39,192 nt of DNA from Oscillospiraceae bacterium (GTDB lineage: Bacteria; Bacillota; Clostridia; Oscillospirales; Ruminococcaceae). Of this stretch, positions 551 through 37,561 are shown piece by piece; the first letter of the stretch is position 1, and each line of letters opens with the position of its first letter. Location of the stretch: assembly GCA_015067025.1 (NCBI GenBank), contig SVNC01000003.1, positions 154,383 through 193,574 on the forward strand. Direction: 5' to 3'. The notes beneath the pieces were generated by a model. It did not search any database. It worked only from the letters and a program-made list of their open reading frames with translations, and was not told the DNA's origin. A program made the translations under genes and the position numbers.

Positions 551-596
551 GTGGTCTCCGTTTGCCAATCACCTAATCTCTTCAAGCGACTTTTAT

Positions 597-625
597 ATTA
601 TACACTTTTCATCATCGTTTGTCAA
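597..625 (-). promoter_or_regulatory. Promoter of the tRNA operon (exact sigma-A consensus)
   Basis: On the minus strand TTGACA (620-625) is followed after exactly 17 bases by TATAAT (597-602). The region around it is very AT-rich. The position fits the tRNA-Val start about 40 bases further on. Confidence 0.9.
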
Positions 626-654
626 GTGTTTTTTAAAATTTTTTTAAATAATTT

Positions 655-996
655 TTATTCCCAGCTTTTCCACACCTCTGGGCAGTAGCCTACAGTCGCC
701 TGTCTGCCGTTTCTGACAATAGGTGTTTTGAACATTGCAGGGGTATCCATAAGTTTTTCTATTCTGTCTTCCTCATGAGCAAGATACTTCAGCGTACTGT
801 TTTCATAAGCCTTTGATTTTTCATCTATAAGCTTTTCATAACCGCCTACTGCACTGCTTACACTGTTGAATTCGCCTTTACTAAGCCCCTTGCTCATTAT
901 ATCCACGAGCTGATATTTTATGCGTCTTTCCTTAAAATATCTTTCTGCCTTTTTGGTATCAAAGCATTTTGATTTTCCGAAGATCTGAATATTCAT
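655..996 (-). CDS. ArsC/Spx-family thioredoxin-fold protein
   Basis: This 113-aa protein has the ArsC/Spx fold signature. A beta strand (NIQIFGKSKC) leads to a single cysteine at residue 11, and near the C-terminus TPIVRNGRQATVGY followed by a Trp matches the cis-Pro and 'iG...W' region. It has one N-terminal Cys (C-F-D-T), not the CxxC redox switch of Spx, and lacks an obvious arsenate-reductase Arg triad. Arsenate reduction is therefore uncertain. A good ribosome binding site (AAAGGGAG) precedes the ATG. It is the last gene of the minus-strand core block, 13 bases after plsY, with no terminator hairpin seen before the tRNA promoter. Confidence 0.8.
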   Translation of the reverse strand: MNIQIFGKSKCFDTKKAERYFKERRIKYQLVDIMSKGLSKGEFNSVSSAVGGYEKLIDEKSKAYENSTLKYLAHEEDRIEKLMDTPAMFKTPIVRNGRQATVGYCPEVWKSWE

Positions 997-1009
997 ATAT
1001 ATTCTCCCT

Positions 1010-1612
1010 TTAGTGCTTCCAGAACATTTTTACCGTGGTTTTTTCTCTTTCTTCAGGAACAGTCAGCATTTTCATCGAAACCGCTGTTGAAATAAACACC
1101 ATACCTATTCCTATCGTCATATCGACAAAGAGCAACGTATTGAGCGTTGTCAGTATGTAGGAAAGTATCGTTCTGTAGCAATGTGGTGTTATTCTTATCA
1201 CAAGTGTAAACAAAAGGAAGAAAAAGCCTAATGTAAGTGCAACCTTCCAGTCAGGGAAAAAGCCCATAAGACTGCCAAAAGTCACCGCAATCGCTTTACC
1301 GCCTTTAAATCTTGCAAATATCGGCAAAATATGCCCGATAACGGGAGCAACCATTACAAATGGCAGGAAAAAACCTTGATAGTCATTTGAATGTATGTAA
1401 AGGAATACCGGCAGAAATCCCTTTGCAAGATCGCAAAGAAGTGTGATCGCTCCGCAAAGAAAGCCGCCGTAGCGGTAGGCATTAGCCGTACCGAAATTCT
1501 TATCGGGACTGTCGGATATAATATCCTTATGAAACAGCTTTGCCACTATTCTTGCAAATAATATACTGCCCATAAGGTAACCCGACAGCATAAAGAACAA
1601 AGCCGTAAGCAT
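1010..1612 (-). CDS. plsY: PlsY-family glycerol-3-phosphate acyltransferase (divergent)
   Basis: This 200-aa multi-pass membrane protein shows the three PlsY blocks: a Gly/Asn/Arg loop (NFGTANAYRYGG) near residues 39-50, LCDLAKGFLPVFL near 60-72, and GHILPIFARFKGGKAIA near 93-109. In the family these bind acyl-phosphate and glycerol-3-phosphate and make lysophosphatidic acid at the membrane. The first motif departs from the usual GSGNPGATNVLR, so this may be a clostridial paralogue and not the main enzyme. plsX, which makes acyl-phosphate, is encoded in the same block at 13942. Confidence 0.78.
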   Translation of the reverse strand: MLTALFFMLSGYLMGSILFARIVAKLFHKDIISDSPDKNFGTANAYRYGGFLCGAITLLCDLAKGFLPVFLYIHSNDYQGFFLPFVMVAPVIGHILPIFARFKGGKAIAVTFGSLMGFFPDWKVALTLGFFFLLFTLVIRITPHCYRTILSYILTTLNTLLFVDMTIGIGMVFISTAVSMKMLTVPEEREKTTVKMFWKH

Positions 1613-25200: not shown

Positions 25201-26016
25201 TTATCCCTTTCTTTGCCTACGGACAAAAAGTCCGACAAGAGCAAAGAGCAGGAACGCACCAAGATTAACGACCACTACGCTTGCCCCTGCAGGAAGATCG
25301 AAGTTATAGGTTACCTCCATACCGATTATATAGCATACCGAAGAAATAAGAGCAGAGCAGATCGTAACACCCTTAAAGCTTTTGAATACTCTCATTGAAG
25401 TCAGTGCAGGGAAAATTATAAGGCTGGATATTAAAAGTGCACCCATAATTCTCATACCTACCACCACAGTAAGAGCAGTAAGAAGTGCCAGCACCGTATT
25501 ATAGAGGTTTGCCTTTACGCCTGTTGCCTTAGAAAACCCCTCGTCAAAGGTAACGCCGAATATCTTGTTATAAAAAAGCACGAAGAGAGCGATTACAACT
25601 ACAGAACATATCACGCTTAAAACAAGGTCGTCATTGCTGATAGCCATAATACTGCCGAACATATAACTATTCATATCCGCACCGCTGTTACTCTTTGACA
25701 GAATTATTATACCTATTGCCATTGCACTGCTCGAAAGGAGTGCAATTGCCGCATCTCCCTTTATTTTGCCGCCGGAGCTTATTTTTATGAGTATAAAAGC
25801 AGCAAGCATAACAACGGGGATAGAAACGTGCAAGGGTGCAAGATTAAGTGCCGATGCTACCGCAAGAGCACCAAAGCCCACGTGAGAAAGTCCGTCGCCT
25901 ATCATCGAGTAACGTTTAAGCACAAGGCTGACGCCGAGAAGTGAAGAACATACAGCTACTAAAAGCCCTACTATAAGAGCACGGACAAGAAAATCATACC
26001 GGAGCATCTCAAACAT
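25201..26016 (-). CDS. znuB: Zinc ABC transporter permease
   Basis: This 271-aa protein of the ABC-3 family has about eight membrane segments. The family's landmark stretches are RYSMIGDGLSHVGFGALAVA (about 36-55) and MRIMGALLISSLIIFPA around 190-206. It forms the membrane channel for Zn(II), or possibly Mn(II), with ZnuC and ZnuA. I use the ATG at 26016, which overlaps the znuC end by eight bases. A longer frame to 26076 lies wholly inside znuC. Confidence 0.93.
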   Translation of the reverse strand: MFEMLRYDFLVRALIVGLLVAVCSSLLGVSLVLKRYSMIGDGLSHVGFGALAVASALNLAPLHVSIPVVMLAAFILIKISSGGKIKGDAAIALLSSSAMAIGIIILSKSNSGADMNSYMFGSIMAISNDDLVLSVICSVVVIALFVLFYNKIFGVTFDEGFSKATGVKANLYNTVLALLTALTVVVGMRIMGALLISSLIIFPALTSMRVFKSFKGVTICSALISSVCYIIGMEVTYNFDLPAGASVVVVNLGAFLLFALVGLFVRRQRKG

Positions 26017-26779
26017 TTTCTTCACCCGCTTTCTTCTGTCTTGCGTTATGGTGTTCGCAACAGCACTGGCAATCACAAGTGCTCATTTCGTGGAATATAT
26101 CAGTACTGCGGTACTCTTCGGTCGTGCCGAAATAATATTCGCCGCCCTCCATATGCAGTATTTTGTTTCCGTATTTCAATGCACCTTGCAGGTCGTGGGA
26201 TATCATTATTACAGTTACTCCCTCTTCCCTGTTAAGACGGCTGATTATTTCATACATCTCATTTGTTACCATCGGGTCAAGGCCTGATACCGGCTCATCA
26301 AGAAGAAGCAGCTTGCTTGTAGCACAAAGAGCTCTTGCAAGCAGTACCCTCTGCTGCTGACCACCTGATAATTCACGGTAACTTCTGCGGGCGATATGCT
26401 TTATACCAAGCAATTCGATGTTATCATTGCAAAGCTTTTTTTCCGCCTTGCTGTAAAAGGGAGAAATTCCGCTTCTGCCAAGACAACCGGACATTACGAC
26501 TTCCTTTACGGTAGCAGGAAAGTCTTTCTGTGCCGCTGTCTGCTGAGGCAGATAGCCTATCTCCTTTTGCTTAAGACCACCGCCAAATAATATTTCGCCC
26601 GATATTGCACTCTTAAGTCCTAAAATAGTTTTCATAAGAGTAGATTTGCCGCTTCCGTTTTCGCCTACTATACAAAGATAATCCCCCTGCTTTACGTCAA
26701 AGGACAGATTATTTATTACTGTCTGTCCTTCGTAGCCTGCAACAAGATCATTACATTTTATCAGATATTCCTCTGTCAT
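26009..26779 (-). CDS. znuC: Zinc ABC transporter ATPase with Cys/His-rich tail
   Basis: This 256-aa ATPase has Walker A GENGSGKST (39-47), Q-loop GYLPQQ (75-80), signature LSGGQQQRV (137-145), Walker B LLLLDEP (157-163) and the switch His in ISHDLQ (194-199). After the normal ATPase end it carries CDCQCCCEHH at 235-244: five Cys and two His in ten residues. This tail is not part of the usual ZnuC fold and could bind zinc on the cytoplasmic side. It is second after znuA in the zur-znuACB order. Confidence 0.94.
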   Translation of the reverse strand: MTEEYLIKCNDLVAGYEGQTVINNLSFDVKQGDYLCIVGENGSGKSTLMKTILGLKSAISGEILFGGGLKQKEIGYLPQQTAAQKDFPATVKEVVMSGCLGRSGISPFYSKAEKKLCNDNIELLGIKHIARRSYRELSGGQQQRVLLARALCATSKLLLLDEPVSGLDPMVTNEMYEIISRLNREEGVTVIMISHDLQGALKYGNKILHMEGGEYYFGTTEEYRSTDIFHEMSTCDCQCCCEHHNARQKKAGEENV

Positions 26780-26805
26780 TTTATACCTCGTTTATAAATA
26801 CTCAA

Positions 26806-27789
26806 TTACCCCTTAAGCACCTTTTCTATATTCTGAAGGTTCTGTCGCATAAGACTGACGTAGCTTTCGCCCTTTTCAAATTCTTCATTTGATACGTTGT
26901 GGCAGGTGTGAAGAGGATAAGCTACCGCTCCCGTTTCGTTACAGATATTATCCGCCACCTTTTTACTGCTGAACTGTAAATAGAACACCGCAGGAATTTT
27001 GTGTGCCTTTACTTCATCAATGATCATCGCAACCGTTGCCGCACTGGGTTCTGACTCGTCAGAGCAGGAAGAAAACGCCGCAAGACAGGTAAAACCGAAT
27101 TCCTTTGCAAAATAAGTAAAAGGAAATTTGTCAGCAAAAACGAGTATCTTTTCGCCTGTTATGTCAGCCGCCGCCTTGAAATCATTCTGAAGTGCGGTTA
27201 TCTCGTTTTCATATTTCTCTTTACTTTCTTTATAACTTTCACTGTTTTTTGCATCCGCTTCACAAAGGGCGTCACAGATTGCACTGAGCATTATTTTTGC
27301 ATTTTTCGGCGACGTCCATATATGCTGGTCATAGTCGTTTTCATTATGACTATGTTCGTCGCTATGCTCTTCGTCCTCGTGACTGTGTCCGCTGTTGGCA
27401 ATAGAAGGTGAAAGATCATCAATGTGATCAATCAGCTTTACCACCTTTACCTTTTCCCTATCAGTATCGGATAAGAGCTTTTCCGCCCATTCTTCATTAC
27501 TGCCGCCTATATATATAAATACGTCGCAGTCCTTTACCGCTATCATATCACTTGGAGTAGGATCGTAGTGGTGAGTTTCACTTCCTATCGGTAAAAGCAT
27601 CTTTATATCCGCTTTATCCCCTGCAATCTGCTTTGCAAAATCATAGGGAGGAAATACGGTAGTCACAATATTCAGTTTTCCGTTACTATCATTGCCGCTT
27701 TTATTTTCTGAGCAGGCAGTAACGCTCATTATCAAAGACGAGCATAACGCTATTGCAACTGCTTTTTTTGTAACATTTATAAATTTCAT
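26806..27789 (-). CDS. znuA: Zinc-binding lipoprotein of the ABC transporter
   Basis: This 327-aa protein has a lipoprotein signal with lipobox VTAC (C26) and is anchored outside the membrane. Metal-site regions visible are THHYDP (73-78) and DQHIW (155-159). Between them lies a His/Asp/Glu-rich loop at 134-149 (HSHEDEEHSDEHSHNE), typical of ZnuA-type zinc capture. The usual third ligand region reads FADKFPFTYFAKEFG, without the expected His. The start at 27789 overlaps the zur stop as ATGA; the frame extending to 27819 lies inside zur. Confidence 0.93.
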   Translation of the reverse strand: MKFINVTKKAVAIALCSSLIMSVTACSENKSGNDSNGKLNIVTTVFPPYDFAKQIAGDKADIKMLLPIGSETHHYDPTPSDMIAVKDCDVFIYIGGSNEEWAEKLLSDTDREKVKVVKLIDHIDDLSPSIANSGHSHEDEEHSDEHSHNENDYDQHIWTSPKNAKIMLSAICDALCEADAKNSESYKESKEKYENEITALQNDFKAAADITGEKILVFADKFPFTYFAKEFGFTCLAAFSSCSDESEPSAATVAMIIDEVKAHKIPAVFYLQFSSKKVADNICNETGAVAYPLHTCHNVSNEEFEKGESYVSLMRQNLQNIEKVLKG

Positions 27790-28196
27790 ATCTTTTCTCC
27801 TTCCTTCGCTAAAGCACATTCTTCACATATACCGTAAAATACGGTGCGTGAACTGTCAACTTTAAAATTGTGACGTGCATTTATATGAGTTTCGATTTCA
27901 GAAAGGTGGTCACATTCAAGGTGCAGAAGCTTATTGCAGCTTAGACACTTCAGATGAAAATGGCTGTGACAGGTGTTATCCCCGATATACTGATAGCAGG
28001 CACTATCACCCTCTTCAAGTATATATTTTCTCACCGCACCGTCACGGCAAAGCTTTTCTAAATGTCGGTATACCGTAGTCTTGCCTACGTTCTTACCACT
28101 GAGTGCCATTGCAATCTCATTTGCAGTCAGATGACTGTCGGAATTTTCTTTAAGATATTCCAGTACTATCTCACTTTGCTTTGTTTTATATGCCAT
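27786..28196 (-). CDS. zur: Fur-family zinc regulator (Zur-like)
   Basis: This 136-aa protein has the Fur winged helix (LTANEIAMALSGKNVGKTTVYRHLEKLC, 23-50) and a metal domain. The latter shows CHSHFHLKC (76-84), a structural pair C84/C87 and a C-terminal pair C124/C127. Linkage to znuACB and the CxxC pairs make zinc sensing more likely than iron or peroxide sensing. It is the first gene of the operon, with a palindrome in its 5' leader suggesting autorepression. Confidence 0.9.
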   Translation of the reverse strand: MAYKTKQSEIVLEYLKENSDSHLTANEIAMALSGKNVGKTTVYRHLEKLCRDGAVRKYILEEGDSACYQYIGDNTCHSHFHLKCLSCNKLLHLECDHLSEIETHINARHNFKVDSSRTVFYGICEECALAKEGEKI

Positions 28197-28328: not shown

Positions 28329-28353
28329 GCAACCTTTTTATATTTTTTTCGTC
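28329..28353 (+). promoter_or_regulatory. ECF-type promoter of the sigma gene
   Basis: GCAAC (28329-28333), 16 bases including a T-rich tract, then CGTC (28350-28353). AAC-N16-CGT is the general pattern of ECF sigma promoters such as SigW/SigX. It lies about 37 bases before the sigma start codon, suggesting positive self-control. No sigma-A box of similar quality was seen nearby. Confidence 0.6.
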
Positions 28354-28390
28354 TATATAGATGAAAAGGAAAACCGAAAGGGTGATATAT

Positions 28391-28936
28391 ATGGATGACA
28401 AAAGAATAATAGAGCTATATAACCTCCGTGACGAGCAGGCTATAAAGGAAACGGATCTAAAATACGGCAGACTATGTACTAAAATAGCAGACGGAATACT
28501 GAAAAATCCGCCTGATAGTGAAGAATGTAAAAACTCCTCTTACTTTAAGCTATGGAACAGTATACCGCCGGAAAACCCCATTTCTTTCTGCGGATATCTG
28601 TGCAAGATAGTCAGAAACACCGCTATAGAGATGTACAGAAAGCTAAGCCGTGGTAAAAGCTATGACGTATACGAAGAATTAAAGGACACCTTTACCGATA
28701 ACGATAATCCCGAAAAAGCCTACGACAGAGTTATGATGATACGACAGCTCAATGAATTTTTAGAAAAGCAGGATAAGAAAAACCGTAAGATATTTGTGGC
28801 AAGATATTATTTCGGGCTATCACACAGGGCGATCGCTGATAATTTCGGGCTTACCGAGCAAGCGGTAAAATCCCGTCTGCTGAGAATAAAAGCGGCTTTA
28901 AAAAAGCATCTTACAGATAGCGGCATAACGATATAG
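28391..28936 (+). CDS. ECF-type RNA polymerase sigma factor
   Basis: This 181-aa protein has sigma region 2 at about 24-90, with the -10 recognition helix SEECKNSSYFKLWNSIPP (43-60) and the FCGYLCKIVRNTAIEMYR helix. Region 4 is at 115-172, with an HTH FGLSHRAIADNFGLTEQAVKSRL. There is no region 1 or 3, as in ECF factors. The start at 28391 follows GAAAGGGTGA; an upstream ATG at 28361 lacks a binding site. The next gene begins 15 bases after its stop and is the likely anti-sigma partner. Confidence 0.9.
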   Translation: MDDKRIIELYNLRDEQAIKETDLKYGRLCTKIADGILKNPPDSEECKNSSYFKLWNSIPPENPISFCGYLCKIVRNTAIEMYRKLSRGKSYDVYEELKDTFTDNDNPEKAYDRVMMIRQLNEFLEKQDKKNRKIFVARYYFGLSHRAIADNFGLTEQAVKSRLLRIKAALKKHLTDSGITI

Positions 28937-28951
28937 AAAGGAGAAAAGGGT

Positions 28952-31900
28952 ATGGATGAAAGATTTTTAGAAGATATCGTAAGCGGTATCGACGATGAGT
29001 ACATAAACGAAACGGCATCGGCACTTTATGAAAACGAAAGCCGTAACGTAACAAACTCCGACGATCTTATTATAGTGGAAAATAAAATCAAAAAATTCCC
29101 CTTTGCTCTTGTTTCTGCGGCAGTTACGGTCATAGCAATCGTTTCCGTTATAGCGGGAGTGGTGCTTTTTAACAGTCAGAATATAAACACCCTTGATAGC
29201 AGTCAGAATAAGGAATATCCCTTATTCCATGAAGAGATGCTGGCGATAAAAAAAGACGGCAAGTGGGGATATATAAATAAATCAGGCGAATGGGAAATAG
29301 AACCGCAGTTTGACGAAGCCTGTGCCTTTCAGAAAAACGGATATGCTATAGTCGGCATTGAAGCAAAGAACGACAAAGGCTCAGAAACAATGATATACGG
29401 TCTTATAGACAAAAGCGGAAGCTACGTAATAGAGCCGACTTATGATTTATTTTACCCCTTTGACGATAACGGGCTTGCTCTTATTAAAAACTATGGAAGT
29501 GCATGGTATATAGATATTTCGAACAATGTTCTGACAAAGCCCGGCTTTACCTTAAGTAAAACTACCAGATTCTGGTCAAATGACTATGCAGTTGTCGGCA
29601 ATCAGATATACGGCGGAATCAAAGTCGGCGTCATTGACAGCGAAGGAAAGTATATCATAGGACCACAGTTTGACAATGTTTTTATTTTAGAAAACGGCTG
29701 TTTTATGGTAGAAAAAAAAGACGTAACAGAAGGAACGGATACAGTGGCAACAGAACATCGTTACGGCATTATTGATAAAGACTACAACGTCATACTTCCT
29801 GTAGAGTATTATAGCATTCTCTGCGGTGACGACGGCATATATGCGGTAGAGCATTATGGCGATGCATACCACGTTGATAAAAACGGAAAACCTCTTTATA
29901 ATCAGCGTTTTAGCCACGTATCAGTCTTTAGCGAATACGGTGTGGCAGTAGCATGCACTAAAGATGATACGTACGGACTTATAGATAAAAACGGCAATTA
30001 TATTACAGAGCCTGTTTATGATCATATTATAAACCGGGGCAGTTTTGGAACTTACGTAGTAGAAAAAGACGGGAAGTACGGATTTATAAATTACAAAAAT
30101 CAAAAGATAACAGATATTATTTTCGAGCATGCTGAAATTTTCGAGGAAAACGGTCTTGCTATCGTTGTTAAGGACGGAAAATACGGCTGTATAAATAAAA
30201 ACGGTGAATTTGCAGTCCAGCCTGTTTATCTTTCAATCAGCAATTTTACAGACGGCGTTGCCGTAGCTGAAACCAAAGACGGCTTTATTCTGATAAACGA
30301 AAAGGGCGGGCAGATCACAAACAAAACCTACGGTTATCTCGGCAACATCAAAAACGAAAGAGTCGCATTCTATGACGGGGAAAGGACATTCGGCTATTTA
30401 GACTATAGCGGAAACGTGATTTTCTCGCAGGTGTTCGGAGAGGATGTAAGCCTGTGGGTAAATTCTTATTCAGACGACGGATACACCGTCGTATACAATC
30501 TTGATGACGAAGGTAAAATAAAAGGCCTCGGCGTTATAGATCACGAGGGTAATTTCATATCAGATCTATGCTTTGGCGAATATTACGCATACGAATACGT
30601 TGAGGAAATAATCGGCGATCGCGAACCTGATATAATAATTAAAATTTCTGAAGACGAAAAAAAGGACAATATCCCGATTGCCTTCCCCTCCTCTCCGGTA
30701 AACAATAAAATATACGCTCATTACGTAATCACGGAAAACATGGCAATAACCGCAGAAAACGTAGATACCTGGTTACCCTACTCATATGTCAGAGATCCCA
30801 ACGCACCGGATTGGTATATAACCAAAAACGAAAAAAATCAGATGATATTAAAATGCGGAAAAATATCATTACCTGCCGCACTCGGTGCCGCAACACCGGC
30901 TAATATCCACATTGGCGACGACAGTCTTGAGGATTATTCCCTCAGAATAAAATTCAGATTTGCAGAGGGTGAGGATATTTATTTTTCTCTCTACGAAACC
31001 ACAATGAGAGGCACTATACACCCTGATTACAATGTAGAGGACAAGGACGGTACAGGAACACCCACATGGTTTCATTTATCCGCTAACGGAAAGCTTTATA
31101 AGGAGTACACCTTTAATAACAGCGAGCTTATTCTCGACTTAGGAGAGCTTGACCGCAATGAATGGCACACATTGCTTATAGATAATATCGGCGGTAGTAT
31201 ACAGCTTGTTTTAGACGATGAAAATAAGGGAGAAATATATAAGGCTTCAACCAACGAATATGGCAGCTTTGCCTTTGGTGGATATGAAGGCGTTGAAATA
31301 ATGAGCATAAAGTTGCTTGATATTGACAACGAATATCTGCCCGTTTATAATTTTAGTTATCTGCCCGAAAAGCTCCGTAATGAGCTTGAAAAAGCAGGAC
31401 TTGGCAATGATATAAACGACGAGCACCAGATAGGTATGATTTCAGCCTTTGTGACCGGCGACACTTCCCTTTTACCGGAAGATACCGACGAAGACGTAAG
31501 ACGGGTTTTTGAAGAAATATACAGTACGATAGTTATAAAGGACTACTATATAGAAGAGCGTGACAACAGCCTTCATTTCACTGCAAGCTATCCGGGTAAA
31601 TCCAGCATAAAAGCAAACGAAGAATATGTAATATATGAGTTCTACCAAAGAGCAGAAAATCAAAACGATAATTATTTAAACAAAGCGTCAAGCGATGTCT
31701 ATTCTCTGCTCAGACTCAGCAACGATGGAAGACTGCCCGCAGATATAGATATCGACTTTATCAACAGCGACAAAAAGTACAATCAAGATCTGACAGACCT
31801 CATTATACGCGACCTTTACTATTATAGCAAATCTGATGGAGATATAGAGGACTTCCGCACTACAAAGCAGGAAATAACCGAATATGCAAAAGCCTACCTG

Positions 31901-32542
31901 GGAATAGATTATATCCCAATAGAATACGATTCTATTTTCGATGAAAACGGTAAGTTTAAAATCGACACCTGGCCCTTCGAAGATGAAAGAACTCCGTTTA
32001 AGTTTTTAAGGAAAAATTATAAGGACGATGGTACGATAGAAGAAGTATTCGTATACTATCAAAAAGGCGATTATCTGAATTTAGCCGAAGAACATATCCG
32101 TGTTTATATCCTTAAGGAAAATGAAAACGGGCGAAACACCGTAATTTCTATGGAGGAATACTGGCAGACAAAAACCGAAAGCGACCTCAGCTATGATTAT
32201 CTTGGCAGTACTGAGCTTACTCTGACTGCAGAAGATGTAATATATGCCTACGAAAAATATACAAACGAAAAGAACTGGGAGTTGCTGAACGTTCTGTGGT
32301 ACGGAAACGAAATGAAGTGGTGCGGTAGCAAGGGCGACGCAGAGAGTATGTTCAGTGATATGAAAATAACAAGCTGTAAAAACGTCACCGAGGAGGAATA
32401 TGCCGACCGTTTCAATATAAGAATAAACGAGCTTATATATCATATCACCTATGAAAGCGACTCTATGGGAGAAGGCAGTATGTTTATAAGGCTCAAGAAA
32501 GACGGTGCAAATTATTATATCAAAGAGACCTTTACCGGTTGA
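28952..32542 (+). CDS. Single-pass WG-repeat / LamG-like membrane protein, putative anti-sigma sensor
   Basis: This 1196-aa protein has an acidic cytoplasmic N-terminus (1-48) and one membrane helix (about 50-73). A rotor of roughly 12 WG-type repeats spans about 93-560, each with a pattern like DGKWGYINKSGEW...EPQFD. Then comes a concanavalin/LamG-like segment (about 580-790: WYITKNEKNQMIL, SLRIKFRFAEG, LGELDRNEWHTLLIDN). About 400 C-terminal residues are of no recognised family. The layout (cytoplasmic stub, TM, large outside domain) directly behind an ECF gene is that of a membrane anti-sigma factor. The WG and LamG parts suggest binding of a wall or sugar ligand. Function is inferred. Confidence 0.8.
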   Translation: MDERFLEDIVSGIDDEYINETASALYENESRNVTNSDDLIIVENKIKKFPFALVSAAVTVIAIVSVIAGVVLFNSQNINTLDSSQNKEYPLFHEEMLAIKKDGKWGYINKSGEWEIEPQFDEACAFQKNGYAIVGIEAKNDKGSETMIYGLIDKSGSYVIEPTYDLFYPFDDNGLALIKNYGSAWYIDISNNVLTKPGFTLSKTTRFWSNDYAVVGNQIYGGIKVGVIDSEGKYIIGPQFDNVFILENGCFMVEKKDVTEGTDTVATEHRYGIIDKDYNVILPVEYYSILCGDDGIYAVEHYGDAYHVDKNGKPLYNQRFSHVSVFSEYGVAVACTKDDTYGLIDKNGNYITEPVYDHIINRGSFGTYVVEKDGKYGFINYKNQKITDIIFEHAEIFEENGLAIVVKDGKYGCINKNGEFAVQPVYLSISNFTDGVAVAETKDGFILINEKGGQITNKTYGYLGNIKNERVAFYDGERTFGYLDYSGNVIFSQVFGEDVSLWVNSYSDDGYTVVYNLDDEGKIKGLGVIDHEGNFISDLCFGEYYAYEYVEEIIGDREPDIIIKISEDEKKDNIPIAFPSSPVNNKIYAHYVITENMAITAENVDTWLPYSYVRDPNAPDWYITKNEKNQMILKCGKISLPAALGAATPANIHIGDDSLEDYSLRIKFRFAEGEDIYFSLYETTMRGTIHPDYNVEDKDGTGTPTWFHLSANGKLYKEYTFNNSELILDLGELDRNEWHTLLIDNIGGSIQLVLDDENKGEIYKASTNEYGSFAFGGYEGVEIMSIKLLDIDNEYLPVYNFSYLPEKLRNELEKAGLGNDINDEHQIGMISAFVTGDTSLLPEDTDEDVRRVFEEIYSTIVIKDYYIEERDNSLHFTASYPGKSSIKANEEYVIYEFYQRAENQNDNYLNKASSDVYSLLRLSNDGRLPADIDIDFINSDKKYNQDLTDLIIRDLYYYSKSDGDIEDFRTTKQEITEYAKAYLGIDYIPIEYDSIFDENGKFKIDTWPFEDERTPFKFLRKNYKDDGTIEEVFVYYQKGDYLNLAEEHIRVYILKENENGRNTVISMEEYWQTKTESDLSYDYLGSTELTLTAEDVIYAYEKYTNEKNWELLNVLWYGNEMKWCGSKGDAESMFSDMKITSCKNVTEEEYADRFNIRINELIYHITYESDSMGEGSMFIRLKKDGANYYIKETFTG

Positions 32543-32596: not shown

Positions 32597-32974
32597 CTAA
32601 AATACGTTTGCAAGTCTTGGCATCTGCTTGTCTATAAAAGAGTCAAGCAGGCTGTAAAGCACTCTGCATTCGGCATAGATATCATCACTTTTCTGTCTTG
32701 TCATTTCGGATATTCTTGCGAGAGTCATCTCTATTTCTATATCATTCTGAACGTCTTCAACAAATATCGTTCTGTCAGAAAGCTTGTGCCAGAGATTTAT
32801 TGCATTATCAGCCTTTTGTAAAGCAGTATCGAAATCTTCTTTTCTGAAATTTTCGGACACGCTTTCTATATTCTGCTTTATCTCTTCTGCCGTAGCCTTA
32901 CAGCTGTAAAAGGCATAAATGCTGAAAACAGTCATCAAAAGCACTAAAGAAAGGCAAAGTAATAATCTTTTCAT
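32597..32974 (-). CDS. DUF4363 family protein
   Basis: This 125-aa protein has an N-terminal membrane anchor or signal (about 4-22, LLLCLSLVLLMTVFSIYAFY) followed by an all-helical, charged outer part. It fits DUF4363, often encoded with DUF421 proteins in spore formers. Role unknown. Its ATG overlaps the DUF421 stop as TAATG. Confidence 0.78.
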   Translation of the reverse strand: MKRLLLCLSLVLLMTVFSIYAFYSCKATAEEIKQNIESVSENFRKEDFDTALQKADNAINLWHKLSDRTIFVEDVQNDIEIEMTLARISEMTRQKSDDIYAECRVLYSLLDSFIDKQMPRLANVF

Positions 32975-33651
32975 TATTTTTTCTTATCCTTTAAAATTAT
33001 ATTTATCCCTTTATCGTCTGAGTCGGTCATTATAAAAACCTCGTTTATCTTCGTCTTCTTTTCAGCAAGAATATTATATATCCTTTGCTCCCCGCCCTCC
33101 CATTTTTCTACGGCGGGGATATTTATTTCTCCATCTTTTACAAGCAGTGTCGGAGGGTTGCAATTGGTCTGTCTTATATCAAGGTCGCCCTTTTCTACGT
33201 TTCTGTAACAGCTTTTCTGATAGAAATTTATCTTACCCGTGGTTTCTACTATTGCATACTGCACCTCGGATAGATCGAATATCATACATTCTCTCATTGC
33301 TTCCATAAGCTCGTCTATAGTATATCTCAGCCTTTTCATTACCTGCTGGTCAATCTTACCATCTGAAATGATTATCTGTGGAGTACCCGTCACCATTTTT
33401 CTGATACCTGTGCTTTTAAGCATTATAAAGGACATAAAAACATCCATACTCACTATCATGAGAATAGGGATAACGCCGTATATCATCGGTACAGACAAGT
33501 CCTCTAAGGACAATGTTGCAATATTTGAAATAAGGATAGTAGTCACAAGCTCCGAAGGCTGAAGCTGGGCAAGCTGTTTTTTTCCCATAAGGCGAAGGGA
33601 CAGCACGATTATAAAATATAAAAGCACCGACCTTATTATAACGATAATCAA
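32974..33651 (-). CDS. DUF421 (YetF-like) membrane protein
   Basis: This 225-aa protein has three N-terminal membrane helices (about 1-80, including LRLMGKKQLAQLQPSELVTTILISNIA) and the cytoplasmic YetF-like domain (RKMVTGTPQIIISDGKID, LRYTIDELMEAMRECMIFDLSEVQYAIVE). YetF-domain proteins occur in the spore inner membrane and in the spoVA2mob heat-resistance operon of Bacillus. The start is UUG at 33651 with AAAGGG nine bases upstream. It is divergent from gerAA with a 105-base gap. Confidence 0.85.
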   Translation of the reverse strand: MIIVIIRSVLLYFIIVLSLRLMGKKQLAQLQPSELVTTILISNIATLSLEDLSVPMIYGVIPILMIVSMDVFMSFIMLKSTGIRKMVTGTPQIIISDGKIDQQVMKRLRYTIDELMEAMRECMIFDLSEVQYAIVETTGKINFYQKSCYRNVEKGDLDIRQTNCNPPTLLVKDGEINIPAVEKWEGGEQRIYNILAEKKTKINEVFIMTDSDDKGINIILKDKKK

Positions 33652-33756
33652 TAAATCACGCCCTTTAAAAATTTACCGACCTTATTATTTTCTTTTACGG
33701 ATAAAAAAATACATAAAGGGGAAAATATGAGCAGAACATAAAAAGGAGGAAGTAAT

Positions 33757-35286
33757 ATGAAGGACAGATTGCCTGATTTTTCCGAGCAGGCGGTAAATAA
33801 TACTCTGAAAGATATAAAGCTCTCTTCATCTCTTGAAGAGAACTGTGTAAATATAAGAGCAATGATGAATAACAGTACCGACCTTATTATAAAGTACGCC
33901 ACGTTAAAGGGATATAAAATAGCGGTGGTAACCTGTGAGGGTATGATAGATAAAATGAAACTTGCAGACCTTATCTATAGACCCCTTATGGAAAATCCGC
34001 CTGAGAACTGCTCTACCGCAAACGAGCTTTTCAATAAGGTTGCATCCACTATGCTTATTGCGGAGGAACAACGGCAGCTCTACACCTGTGATGACGTACT
34101 GCACGCCGCAATGTCAGGCTTTGCGGTGATACTCTGTGACGAAGTAAAGTATGCCATAGCGATAGGTATTCAAGGCTTTTCTCACAGAAGTATAGACGAA
34201 CCCAGCACTCATATAAACTTAAGAGCGTCAAGAGAAGGCTTTATCGAAGTTATCCGAATAAATATAGCTATGGTAAGGCGAAGGATGAAATCTCCTACCC
34301 TTAAAACTGAGCTTATGAAGATAGGAGAAAGAAGTAACACAGATATCTGTCTTTGCTATCTTACAGACAGGGCGGATGAAAAAATAGTTGCTGAAATAAA
34401 GGATAAAATAAAAAACATCCCGCTAAACACTATTTTAAGCAGTGAATTTTTACAGTCCTTTTTAGAGCAGAGCAATTCAAGTTTGTTTTCGCAGATAATG
34501 GTGAGCGAAAGGCCTGACGTATTCGTTTCAAAGCTCTATGAGGGGAGAGTCGGCATAATCGTTGACGGCACACCCTTTGCACTTATTCTGCCCTCTTTAT
34601 TTATCGAAAACTTTCACACTATGGACGACTATACCCATAAACCCTATTTTTCGGTGTTTATGCGTACTTTAAGATTTGTCGCCTTTATTCTTGCGGTGAT
34701 ACTGCCGGGACTTTATGTGGCACTATGTAATTTCAACCCCGAAATGTTAAGGAGCAGTCTGCTGCTGAATATCTATTCCTCGGTGCAGACTACAGCCTTT
34801 CCTGTTTTCGGGGAATGTCTTATTATGTATTCCCTTTATGAAATTATGAGAGAGGCGGGGCTGAGATTGCCGAAAAGTGTCGGTCACGCTGTCAGTATAG
34901 TGGGCGGACTTGTAATAGGTGAGATAACCGTTTCTGCAGGTCTTATGAGTGCCCCCGTAGTGCTTATCATTGCCGCTACGGGACTATGCTCCTTTGCAGT
35001 GCCCGACCTATACGAAAGCTCAATGATATTAAGACTTATATTCATTTTAGCAGGCGGCATATTCGGACTGTTCGGTATAACTGTGGCAGGTACTGTACTG
35101 CTCTTCAGACTTTGCTCTAAAAACGCTTACGGAGTTCCTTATATGGCACCCTTTGCACCCTTTACCTTAAGGAGTATACTTCGTGATACCTTCGTAAGAG
35201 TAAGCTGGCAGAGCCTTTCAAAATCTGACATCACGGTACAGCAGTTATCAGGCAAGGCAAAAAGGAATGAGAGAAAGGATAAGTAA
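33757..35286 (+). CDS. gerAA: Spore germination receptor subunit GerA type (A)
   Basis: This 509-aa protein matches the GerA family: an N-terminal hydrophilic half (about 1-290, with DLIIKYATLKGYKIAVVTCEGMIDK, the family's mid-part RPDVFVSKLYEGRVGIIVDGTPFALILPSLF), then five or so membrane segments (305-450) and a C-terminal soluble tail. With B and C subunits it forms the inner-membrane channel/receptor for germinants. AAAAGGAGG lies eight bases before the ATG. A sporulation (SigG) promoter is expected in the 105-base gap, but none could be read with confidence. Confidence 0.93.
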   Translation: MKDRLPDFSEQAVNNTLKDIKLSSSLEENCVNIRAMMNNSTDLIIKYATLKGYKIAVVTCEGMIDKMKLADLIYRPLMENPPENCSTANELFNKVASTMLIAEEQRQLYTCDDVLHAAMSGFAVILCDEVKYAIAIGIQGFSHRSIDEPSTHINLRASREGFIEVIRINIAMVRRRMKSPTLKTELMKIGERSNTDICLCYLTDRADEKIVAEIKDKIKNIPLNTILSSEFLQSFLEQSNSSLFSQIMVSERPDVFVSKLYEGRVGIIVDGTPFALILPSLFIENFHTMDDYTHKPYFSVFMRTLRFVAFILAVILPGLYVALCNFNPEMLRSSLLLNIYSSVQTTAFPVFGECLIMYSLYEIMREAGLRLPKSVGHAVSIVGGLVIGEITVSAGLMSAPVVLIIAATGLCSFAVPDLYESSMILRLIFILAGGIFGLFGITVAGTVLLFRLCSKNAYGVPYMAPFAPFTLRSILRDTFVRVSWQSLSKSDITVQQLSGKAKRNERKDK

Positions 35287-35289
35287 ATT

Positions 35290-36372
35290 TTGAGTAAGAT
35301 CAGCAGCAAACAGTTAGCTACTGCCTTTGTGGCATCCCGCCTTACAACTGAAATGATAATGATACCCGGTGAGCTTATCCGCTACGGCTCAGACAGATTT
35401 ATCGCAATCCTTATTGCAAAGCTTATGGTACTTCTTTTATATCTTCCTTTACTTTTACTGACAAGAAAATATAAAGGAGATAACTTTGTATCAGCGGCGA
35501 TCAGACGTAACCGTATATATGGGATCATCCTCAGTATCATTTTCGGTGTTGTGCTGACGTCGGTGACGGTAAATTCAGTGCTTAATTTACAGCTTTATAT
35601 CACCGATACGCTTCTTGGCGAGTTGCTTTTAATAAGCGGTGTTGCACTTATAACAGGTGCTTCGGTGTACGGTGCTGTAAAGGGCGTAAGTGCCGTTACA
35701 AGAACGGCGGTATTCGGCACTTCAATATTCGGCTTTTTAATAATTCTGATAATTATTACGATGTCTGATAAAATGGATTTTTCCTACCTCTACCCTGCTA
35801 CTATAGAGGACGGCAATTACTTTTTCAGAGCCTTTGTTTCAGAAGTAAGCTGTAATAGCGAAATTCTTATCTTTGCGGTGCTTTGCAAAAATATTGAAAG
35901 CAAGCCGAATAAAACGGTATACTATTCTCTTGCAGTGATATTTGTACTTTTAGAGCTTGTAAATTTAATCTACAATCTTATATTAGGACCGTATCTTAAC
36001 GAGCTTGAATATCCTCTTTACGTCATTTCATCACTTTCTGATATCGTGATATTCCAGAGACTTGACGGGATCGACGCTATCGTGTGGCTTTTATGCGGTA
36101 TTATCAAGATAGCACTGCTTTTTACTTCGATGAAGGAGATATACACAACTGCATCCAAAAAACCTAAAGCTATATGGTTTTTAATTATCTATGCTCTTTT
36201 AGTAACGTTTATCTGTATGATAACAGGCTCAGACAGAAGATATTACGACCTTTTGCAAACGGTACTGCACACTGCTGTGCCGCTTGTTATAGCAGGAACC
36301 GTTATCCCGCTACTGGTTTTATTCACAGGAAAAAAGAAGCCGCAAAAGGAGGAAAACTATGAAAAAGATTAG
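35290..36372 (+). CDS. gerAB: Spore germination receptor subunit B (permease-like)
   Basis: This 360-aa protein has ten predicted membrane segments and the GerAB/amino-acid permease pattern (ISSKQLATAFVASRLTTEMIMIPGELIRYGSDRFIAILIA at the start in family order). It is the germinant-binding subunit. The start is UUG at 35290, three bases after the gerAA stop, using AAAGGAT at the end of gerAA. It overlaps gerAC by 14 bases. Confidence 0.92.
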   Translation: MSKISSKQLATAFVASRLTTEMIMIPGELIRYGSDRFIAILIAKLMVLLLYLPLLLLTRKYKGDNFVSAAIRRNRIYGIILSIIFGVVLTSVTVNSVLNLQLYITDTLLGELLLISGVALITGASVYGAVKGVSAVTRTAVFGTSIFGFLIILIIITMSDKMDFSYLYPATIEDGNYFFRAFVSEVSCNSEILIFAVLCKNIESKPNKTVYYSLAVIFVLLELVNLIYNLILGPYLNELEYPLYVISSLSDIVIFQRLDGIDAIVWLLCGIIKIALLFTSMKEIYTTASKKPKAIWFLIIYALLVTFICMITGSDRRYYDLLQTVLHTAVPLVIAGTVIPLLVLFTGKKKPQKEENYEKD

Positions 36373-37561
36373 TCTGCTTTTAACTATAGCTATTACCTTA
36401 CCGCTTATTCTTTCCGGCTGTGTAAGATACGTGGAGCTTTCTGACAGAGCAATCGTGCAGGCTTTGGGGATAGATTATTTTCCCGATACGAACACCTACA
36501 GAATAAGTATGCAGTATTTCTCCCAGACCAGCGAGGGCGGACAAAATCAGATAGATAAGACTCAGCCAAACGTGCTGAAGTCTGTAGGCGAGGGTGACAG
36601 CATACTGACTGCCGCTAAAAACGCTTCTATACTATCAGGCAAGGATCTTCTGCTAAGCGAAAACAGACTTATCATTATAGGTTCAGAGCTTTGCAATTAT
36701 GACCTTATGAAAACATTACAGTTTTTTATTGCAAACTATCATTCCCACCCAAAGACCTACGTCTGTGCGGCAGAAAACACAGCAGAGGAGCTTATTGATA
36801 TCCGTTTTAAAGAGGGCTACGTTTCTTCTCAGCATCTTATTAATCTTATCGAAAACGCCTCCTCCGAGGGCAGAACTTTAGCCGATTATGCCTATCAGAT
36901 AATGGGACAGCTCTGCAATAAAACAGGTAGTGCCTATCTGCCAAAACTTAAAATATCCGAGCAGAAGACTGACGGCACGGTACCAAAGGAATCGGGTGGA
37001 GAAAAAAAGGGTGAAAGTAGTGAGCAAGAAACCGAAAAGACTATCGTTCTCGATGGTGGGGTTATCTTTTCCGATAAGCTGAAAAGCGGTGTGATAGATA
37101 ATGACAGTTGCATAGGGCTTCAATTTCTGTGTAACAGAATGGCTGAATATTCGGTTACTGTAGACACAGAGAATAATTATAAATCTACTATAACTTTTTT
37201 CAGCGTTCAGACTTCAATCACTCCGAAATTTGACCTTGACGGCAGATTTTATTTCGATATAAGGGTAAAGGCTGATGGAAGGTTTGACGAGCGTGGGGGA
37301 ATTTCTGAAACCGATACGGGAAAAATTATGAAGGTAAAACAAGATGCAGAAAACAAAGTCAAAATGCTGATAGAAAAGGCTATAGAAAAAGTGAGAAATG
37401 AATGTAAATCAGACGTATTCGGACTTGAAAAAGCACTCAGGCATCACTATCCCGATTATGCTTATCAGAACAGAGACAATATAACGGATATCATTCTTTC
37501 AGCCCCCTGCACTGTAAAGGTAGAATGCGATACCTTCAGCTTAGGGCTTGAAAGTTATTAA
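36359..37561 (+). CDS. gerAC: Spore germination receptor lipoprotein subunit C
   Basis: This 400-aa lipoprotein has a signal ending LILSGC (lipid-bearing C21) followed by the family opening VELSDRAIVQALGIDYFPD. A serine/Glu-rich stretch at about 200-230 (SGGEKKGESSEQETEK) splits the N- and C-terminal domains. The latter holds the coiled KMLIEKAIEKVRNECKSDVFGLEKALR end typical of GerAC. It sits on the outer face of the spore inner membrane. Confidence 0.93.
   Translation: MKKISLLLTIAITLPLILSGCVRYVELSDRAIVQALGIDYFPDTNTYRISMQYFSQTSEGGQNQIDKTQPNVLKSVGEGDSILTAAKNASILSGKDLLLSENRLIIIGSELCNYDLMKTLQFFIANYHSHPKTYVCAAENTAEELIDIRFKEGYVSSQHLINLIENASSEGRTLADYAYQIMGQLCNKTGSAYLPKLKISEQKTDGTVPKESGGEKKGESSEQETEKTIVLDGGVIFSDKLKSGVIDNDSCIGLQFLCNRMAEYSVTVDTENNYKSTITFFSVQTSITPKFDLDGRFYFDIRVKADGRFDERGGISETDTGKIMKVKQDAENKVKMLIEKAIEKVRNECKSDVFGLEKALRHHYPDYAYQNRDNITDIILSAPCTVKVECDTFSLGLESY

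Follow-up and report, generated by a model that had tools for sequence, protein, structure and literature searches.

The gene pair and its layout

The window analysed here is a stretch of 39,192 nucleotides (nt) from an Oscillospiraceae bacterium (Ruminococcaceae in the GTDB lineage; assembly GCA_015067025.1, contig SVNC01000003.1, forward-strand positions 154,383 to 193,574), and its positions 28329 to 32542 hold a gene for an extracytoplasmic function (ECF) sigma factor followed directly by a gene for a very large protein with one membrane helix. A preliminary description of this DNA had read the two as an ECF/anti-sigma pair from position and topology, and the pairing is now supported by the co-occurrence of the inner tail of the large protein with ECF genes and by a predicted structure of the two joined. 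We consider it very likely that the pair consists of an ECF sigma factor and its cognate membrane anti-sigma factor, of which the tail would act as a clamp and the outside part as a sensor. The two genes and the parts of the larger protein are as follows (lengths in amino acids, aa):

28391..28936, + strand: ECF sigma factor, 181 aa (Pfam Sigma70_r2 and Sigma70_r4_2 over cut-off; TIGR02937, E 2e-20)
28937..28943, + strand: ribosome-binding site AAAGGAG of the second gene (read from the sequence)
28952..32542, + strand: one-helix membrane protein, 1196 aa, proposed anti-sigma factor (open reading frame, sequence, Pfam)
28952..29095, + strand: residues 1-48, shared cytoplasmic domain, proposed sigma clamp (matches of profiles A3 and A6 beside ECF genes; helices ordered in the joined model)
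29096..29170, + strand: residues 49-73, membrane helix (orthologue hydropathy; sequence)
29213..30619, + strand: residues 88-556, WG-repeat block (Pfam PF14903; BLAST blocks)
30647..31327, + strand: residues 566-792, laminin-G-like block (PF02210, below cut-off in the window protein; BLAST blocks)
31991..32539, + strand: residues 1014-1196, conserved C-terminal region (homologue comparison)

The longest reading frame of the sigma factor spans 28361-28936 (191 aa), but its start codon is likely the second ATG at 28391, because orthologues carry a 1-nt frameshift ahead of that ATG. With sigma-2 and sigma-4 only, a length of 181-191 aa and both Pfam domains over cut-off, the protein belongs to the ECF sigma factors, and its predicted fold agrees with ECF structures in a structure comparison. 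Its stop codon ends at 28936, and the 15 nt to the second open reading frame contain the AAAGGAG; the arrangement first described, a 181-aa ECF gene with a 1196-aa protein 15 bases on, agrees with the reading frames and with Pfam. The larger protein has the general layout of membrane anti-sigma factors, namely a gene directly behind that of the ECF, a cytoplasmic tail, one helix and an outside part. Sequence and orthologue hydropathy agree with the 48-residue cytoplasmic N-terminus and single helix described earlier, the helix being predicted at 53-71 in the orthologues L093 and L095 and at 54-72 in L094, and, judged by eye, lying at the corresponding position of the window protein.

The outside part matches the Pfam family WG_beta_rep in 8 stretches (E 2.3e-43), and library scans of homologues matched no family to the C-terminal region. 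FecR, RsgI, RskA and RseA domains are not among the three Pfam families that match the 1196-aa protein at E<=10, NCBIfam gave no match to it, and a PDB sequence search with the whole protein returned none at E<=1. Residues 1-48 contain neither Cys nor His and thus lack the Hx3Cx2C motif of the class I zinc anti-sigma domain (ZAS); the Pfam and NCBIfam scans bear out, as does this composition, the earlier remark that the N-terminus shows no known anti-sigma motif.

A cytoplasmic tail shared among parallel pairs

The genome (2.41 Mb, 29 contigs), searched with the ECF, holds 14 ECFs of one subgroup (13 at 38-52% identity besides that of the window); the same search gave one further, remote ECF at 26% identity. 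All 14 subgroup genes directly precede a gene for a one-helix protein whose tail aligns with that of the window protein, and because the same layout stands at every one of them, the pairing is beyond chance. A unique pair was rejected here, which corrects the preliminary description, as it is one of 14 parallel pairs in its genome and one of a class-wide family. When the genome was searched with the 1196-aa protein, four other proteins matched only at about residues 4-87 and bear different outside parts; one other WG protein matched besides.

The core of the tail can be written approximately as a-x-x-x-I-D-D-x-x-I-x-E-A; short tails of about 30-40 residues occur, as do tails with an insertion that ends in S-D-E-L-I-x-V-E ahead of the helix. 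In library scans of 47 of 100 tails, the Pfam and NCBIfam matches were weak or scattered among the families listed (the first 25 of 30 and 37). Judged by sequence, the approximately 48 inner residues thus form a short shared domain for which no covering Pfam or NCBIfam model was found. The best PDB match of the tail profile, 7ue2 (E 1.8e-6, four stretches), which we take to be a designed repeat protein, was set aside as a chance match. Three more distant ECF genes on contigs C15, C12 and C23 of the same genome (L181, L236 and L238) match the subgroup profile at E 6e-13 to 5e-9, and the proteins behind them match the tail profile mainly in the helix; the genome therefore has more than 14 pairs.

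Co-occurrence and co-inheritance of tail and ECF

Tail profile A3 was searched against 21 genomes, a match being taken as cytoplasmic where it starts at or before position 32 of the 101 in the profile. Outside the own genome, all 20 cytoplasm-reaching matches, from six genomes of the same genus, have an ECF gene directly upstream, and so do all 15 in the own genome, one of which (contig C15) belongs to a more distant ECF and is itself without the clear motif. An ECF accompanies two of the five examined matches that are confined to the membrane helix. A wider profile, A6, gave 56 matches in 41 genomes of the class; 30 of these loci and seven further stretches, two of them from motif-bearing matches of this search, were examined, the rest being other own-genome pairs and helix-only matches. 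Every match outside the own genome that starts at position 14 or before (16/16, spread over nine genomes and nine other families) has an ECF gene directly upstream; for those starting at 22 or later this is so at 4 of the 14 loci examined, and among intermediate matches (profile start 17-22) an ECF lies upstream in L236 and L238 and none in L203, L235 and L237. Searching for homologues of residues 1-48, a check suggested in the preliminary description, thus showed that those matching in the cytoplasmic part follow an ECF gene at every locus examined.

From the side of the sigma factor, we sampled 79 loci of named genomes from the best 80 of 267 relatives, with 97 ECF reading frames in total, several loci coming from one metagenome-assembled genome (MAG) or array. 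Counting as neighbours those genes that lie -120 to +50 nt from the ECF and whose membrane helix starts at residue 25-92, 92 of the 97 have a tail-plus-helix neighbour. The two genes overlap by 4 nt in 61 of these 92 pairs, and 90 of the 92 neighbours match the tail profiles from the first positions, part of them having been used to build those profiles. By label, the 79 loci belong to Oscillospiraceae, to Lachnospiraceae (Blautia among them) and to an Erysipelotrichaceae MAG; L093-L095, the three orthologous loci of the window pair, bear the label of Ruminiclostridium sp. MAGs, with deer and goat colon as the source. Tandem arrays of family pairs occur as well, with three pairs each in L099, L103 and L114 and two in L144.

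The pairwise distances among ECFs follow those among tails, with r 0.77 for the 14 pairs of the own genome (0/5000 shuffles as high) and r 0.32 for 41 non-redundant pairs (0/2000 shuffles). This correlation says that both genes travel together and is by itself silent on binding.

Predicted structure of the sigma factor with the tail

Because both genes are in frame, the ECF and partner residues 1-51 could be joined in one chain, with the single stop codon read as Gln. The alignment supplied to AlphaFold2 (A5) held 12 ECF rows (the window and 11 other in-frame pairs) and 92 tails, all 92 of them placed on the tail columns, and excluded ECF-only rows. The tails came from a set of 99, composed without L096, L098, L122, L150, L162, L111, L168 and L125 and without rows whose helix starts past residue 72 or off the contig, of which 7 more were dropped before folding.

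The joined model reached a predicted template modelling score (pTM) of 0.82 and a mean predicted local distance difference test (pLDDT) of 84, whereas the ECF by itself, run as a control on these 12 ECF sequences, reached 0.46 and 77 and had a disordered linker, residues 98-120 lying mostly below 50. Linker blocks 101-110 and 111-120 rose from pLDDT 35 and 46 alone to 78 and 54 in the joined chain. Two helices appear in the tail (model residues 200-208 and 212-233), with block values of 90, 97 and 84 and values below 50 beyond them. DSSP assigns single bridge residues at 112, in the linker, and at 197, just ahead of the tail, which probably form a pair in the model. In the prediction, order thus rises strongly when the tail is joined to the ECF, and the tail holds the sigma domains in a fixed position relative to each other; this rise in order, together with the co-occurrence of tail and ECF, suggests that residues 1-33 probably clamp the sigma factor. 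A predicted complex, proposed earlier as another check on the pairing, thus comes out in its favour as judged by pTM and pLDDT.

A modular outer part

Protein homologues are few, eight for residues 1-95 and nine for 560-1196 (both counts include the protein itself and were taken without gene context). The WG block (about 88-556) is cleanly missing in four of the eight (P0007, P0008, P0009 and P0010), whose tails are still 72-79% identical to that of the window protein. The laminin-G-like block is twofold in P0007, P0009, P0011 and L093 and recurs C-terminally in P0004, and L095 lacks most of the region behind it. Matches to the 1196-aa protein occur in 21 of 60 genomes of the genus; at WG-repeat loci other than the orthologue (L035/L055), an ECF was found in 0/27 of the stretches fetched from the genus, some of the 27 being pieces of one gene and 23 including at least 500 nt ahead of the frame start. 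Given the four homologues without the block and the 27 loci without an ECF, the WG repeats were rejected as the defining part, and from these comparisons the WG part is best described as one interchangeable outer module. Homologues usually found without an ECF gene had been named at the outset as the finding that would speak against the pairing, and this holds for homologues of the WG part, while those of the tail keep their ECF. Another WG-repeat protein of the own genome (L010 3678-7715, contig C11), with a 1346-aa frame, begins with a segment resembling a zinc ribbon and also bears a membrane helix; its 10-kb stretch shows no ECF.

The outer parts of the neighbours were tabulated with Pfam for 63 of 95 neighbours, non-redundant and complete, and for 15 in the own genome. 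They contain the leucine-rich repeat (LRR) family LRR_5 (4/15 in the own genome, 9/63 elsewhere), beta-propellers (1/15 and 2/63) and, elsewhere, serpin (2/63), M23 peptidase (2/63) and an IseA-like inhibitor (1/63; located at L097 796-3981); the last three hint that proteases or cell-wall enzymes may be sensed. For the laminin-G-like block, 5 of 11 rows of homologues gave PF02210 at E<=1 (best 5.5e-4), and single rows gave a xyloglucan-binding domain (0.0015) and a domain of the 3-keto-disaccharide hydrolase type (0.0057), so that a sugar-binding fold is a fair guess.

Candidate promoter and genomic surroundings

Upstream of the ECF gene lie two candidate promoter elements:

28329..28334, + strand: candidate -35 element GCAACC of an ECF-type promoter, with a T-tract after it (read from the sequence; orthologues)
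28350..28355, + strand: candidate -10 element CGTCTA (read from the sequence; orthologues; genome pattern search)

The start of the feature as first delimited, 28329, thus falls on the -35 element. GCAACC is identical in L093, L094 and L095; the promoter as a whole is unchanged in L094 and L095 and has one change in L093, although the entire aligned stretch is 93% alike. ECF promoters of B. subtilis are described with AAC and a T-tract at -35 (PMC6056542, in part). A strict AAC-N13-17-CGT pattern lies upstream of 20 of 109 ECF genes, in some cases too distant or too close for a promoter; other ECF genes bear the related forms GTCTTATA and ACTCTTATA by eye, for which reason the paralogous pairs seem to have promoters of their own.

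Divergent from the ECF gene, on the minus strand at 25201-28196, lie genes for a Fur-family regulator, ZnuA and ABC zinc uptake, Fur and ZnuA being assigned by Pfam and the others by eye. The start of the Fur gene upstream of the ECF is kept in L093-L095, and Fur and ZnuA in L184; the intergenic TTGAAACTGAATTTCAATTTCA resembles a Zur/Fur box by eye. Directly downstream, 32597-37561 hold DUF4363 and DUF421 (YetF) genes and a GerA/GerAC-type spore germination operon.

Discussion

As a rule, a one-helix protein whose gene directly follows an ECF gene acts as an inhibitor; RseA, RsiW, RsiV and CnrY are examples. The possibility that the large protein instead activates the sigma factor or recruits it to the membrane, with a tail that binds without inhibiting, draws on the fact that adjacency, co-inheritance and the joined model indicate association and not its sign; against the general rule, and against a model in which sigma-2, linker and sigma-4 become more rigid, as fits sequestration, we regard it as very unlikely. 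That a WG surface protein merely came to lie behind an ECF gene by accident has next to no chance of being right: the ECF-free WG loci of the genus would agree with it, but it is the N-terminal domain and not the WG part that tracks the ECF, in 14/14, 20/20 and 16/16 cases. Closer to the anti-sigma reading is the proposal that the pair simply belongs to the DUF4179/ECF30 group, as an RsiV-like member, and forms no separate kind. RsiV/BAS1627 is likewise an ECF anti-sigma factor with a short helical tail, one membrane segment and an outside sensor, and in the class, short-tailed proteins of the DUF4179 and RsiV-like types are encoded behind ECF genes too. A clear DUF4179 match occurs in one of 63 family members scanned (E 1.1e-10), two proteins of other families (L225 and L227) combine the shared tail with a DUF4179 match below cut-off, and 3 of 47 tails have a weak match to it (best E 0.031). 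However, DUF4179 matches neither the window protein, whose outside modules are different, nor anything in the whole own genome despite its 14 pairs, and a comparison of the tail profile with that of four DUF4179/RsiV-like tails, the latter profile being thin, aligned just 13 membrane-helix columns at a probability of 11%. Assignment to DUF4179/RsiV was rejected on these grounds and seems improbable to us, and given the one clear and two weak matches in tail-bearing proteins, the two families may be kin or may share the stretch behind the helix.

Two other known systems invite comparison. CnrY, the class II partner of CnrH, combines a short zinc-free tail with a membrane anchor. Its two helices, of which the first lies on sigma-4 and the second on sigma-2, recall the two predicted in the window tail, and class I anti-sigma domains also contact sigma-4 and sigma-2 (PMC7406223, in part). 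CnrH, however, lies 12.7 Å from the window model over both domains, and NF033790 (CnrY) matched 2 of 47 tails weakly (best E 0.008, near chance level); filing under CnrY was rejected, this weak match being all that NF033790 gave. The RsgI/SigI systems of cellulolytic Clostridia are alike in having several parallel pairs per genome, each with an outside sensor module, a helix, an inner sigma-binding domain and a promoter of its own (PMC6056542, in part). They differ in that SigI, according to the part of that source consulted, has no sigma-4, whereas the window sigma factor is a true ECF, and in that no RsgI domain was matched in the window protein.

Several observations weigh against an ECF/anti-sigma pair with the tail as clamp, or temper what can be drawn from the data. 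Linker residues 116-119 remain below pLDDT 50 in the joined model, and pTM and pLDDT are indirect measures, taken here on chains joined through a read-through stop codon and a 6-residue linker. In the structure comparison (VIA), which used model residues 7-193 without the tail and measured distances over both sigma domains, sigma factors in complex with RseA, RskA, RsiW, CnrY, NepR and RsbN differ from the model by 12-15 Å and SigE/ChrR by 8 Å, sigma-28/FlgM coming nearest at 5.7 Å over 163 residues. Four of the 97 sampled ECF neighbours are of another kind (L096, L098 and L122 have no such gene, and the helix in L150 starts at residue 159), and one lies at a contig end. Nearest paralogues agree between ECF and tail in just 9 of 14 pairs, the window pair being among those that disagree, and correlated distances are equally expected from inheritance as one operon. 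Regarding the promoter, GCAACC-N14-16-CGTCTA has a single match in the genome, at the window operon, but the reversed control also gives one, so that the count alone is not significant; with one mismatch allowed there are 4+4 matches versus 1+3 in the control, and the genome pattern searches found no regulon beyond the operon's own promoter.

In the mechanism that we propose by analogy, two short helices within residues 1 to about 33 are predicted to bind the sigma factor and to hold sigma-2, linker and sigma-4 together, away from RNA polymerase. The outside part, with its WG block, laminin-G-like block and conserved C-terminus, would be the sensor, and the single membrane helix would relay the signal. 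Once an outside ligand (perhaps a glycan) or a partner is bound, the inhibitor would be lost, probably through two-step proteolysis with the final cut made by an M50 site-2 protease; the freed sigma factor might then transcribe its own operon from the GCAACC/CGTCTA promoter, that is, by autoregulation. RsiV is cut in this manner by signal peptidase and then by RasP (PMC6066255, in part). The genome contains four PF02163 matches for a site-2 M50 protease, but so do all 14 control genomes have M50, and its presence thus lends weak support to regulated intramembrane proteolysis. The at least 14 parallel pairs of the genome would have the clamp in common and differ in the sensor.

ECF/anti-sigma pairs rank among the main routes by which bacteria take in signals from outside. 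The kind of system at this locus is known, here with a proposed, so far unnamed anti-sigma domain and swappable sensors. A literature search found, among the matches listed and in titles and abstract openings, neither the tail domain nor WG repeats in an anti-sigma factor, the 2021 ECF classification (NAR), in which this ECF group may be listed, lying outside its scope. A large set of such pairs in the class is apparently without a domain model, and the libraries searched therefore give their inhibitors no anti-sigma name. With a profile made from the clamp domain, these inhibitors could be named genome-wide, the pairs counted per species and likely cues read from the outer modules, and the window pair, its sensor parts being of the WG and laminin-G-like types, offers a case that can be tested. 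In a broader view, to which we give slightly less than even confidence, gut Clostridia might possess a plug-in receptor system in which one sigma clamp and helix can be joined to almost any outer sensor, each with an ECF and a promoter of its own. Its sensors would include WG/laminin-G, BspA-type LRR, beta-propeller, serpin, M23 peptidase and endopeptidase inhibitor modules, with a dozen or more pairs in such a genome, and the outer modules would be gained, lost and duplicated among close relatives around a constant clamp. If true, this would represent a further large platform for one-step transmembrane signalling, beside two-component systems and RsgI/SigI.

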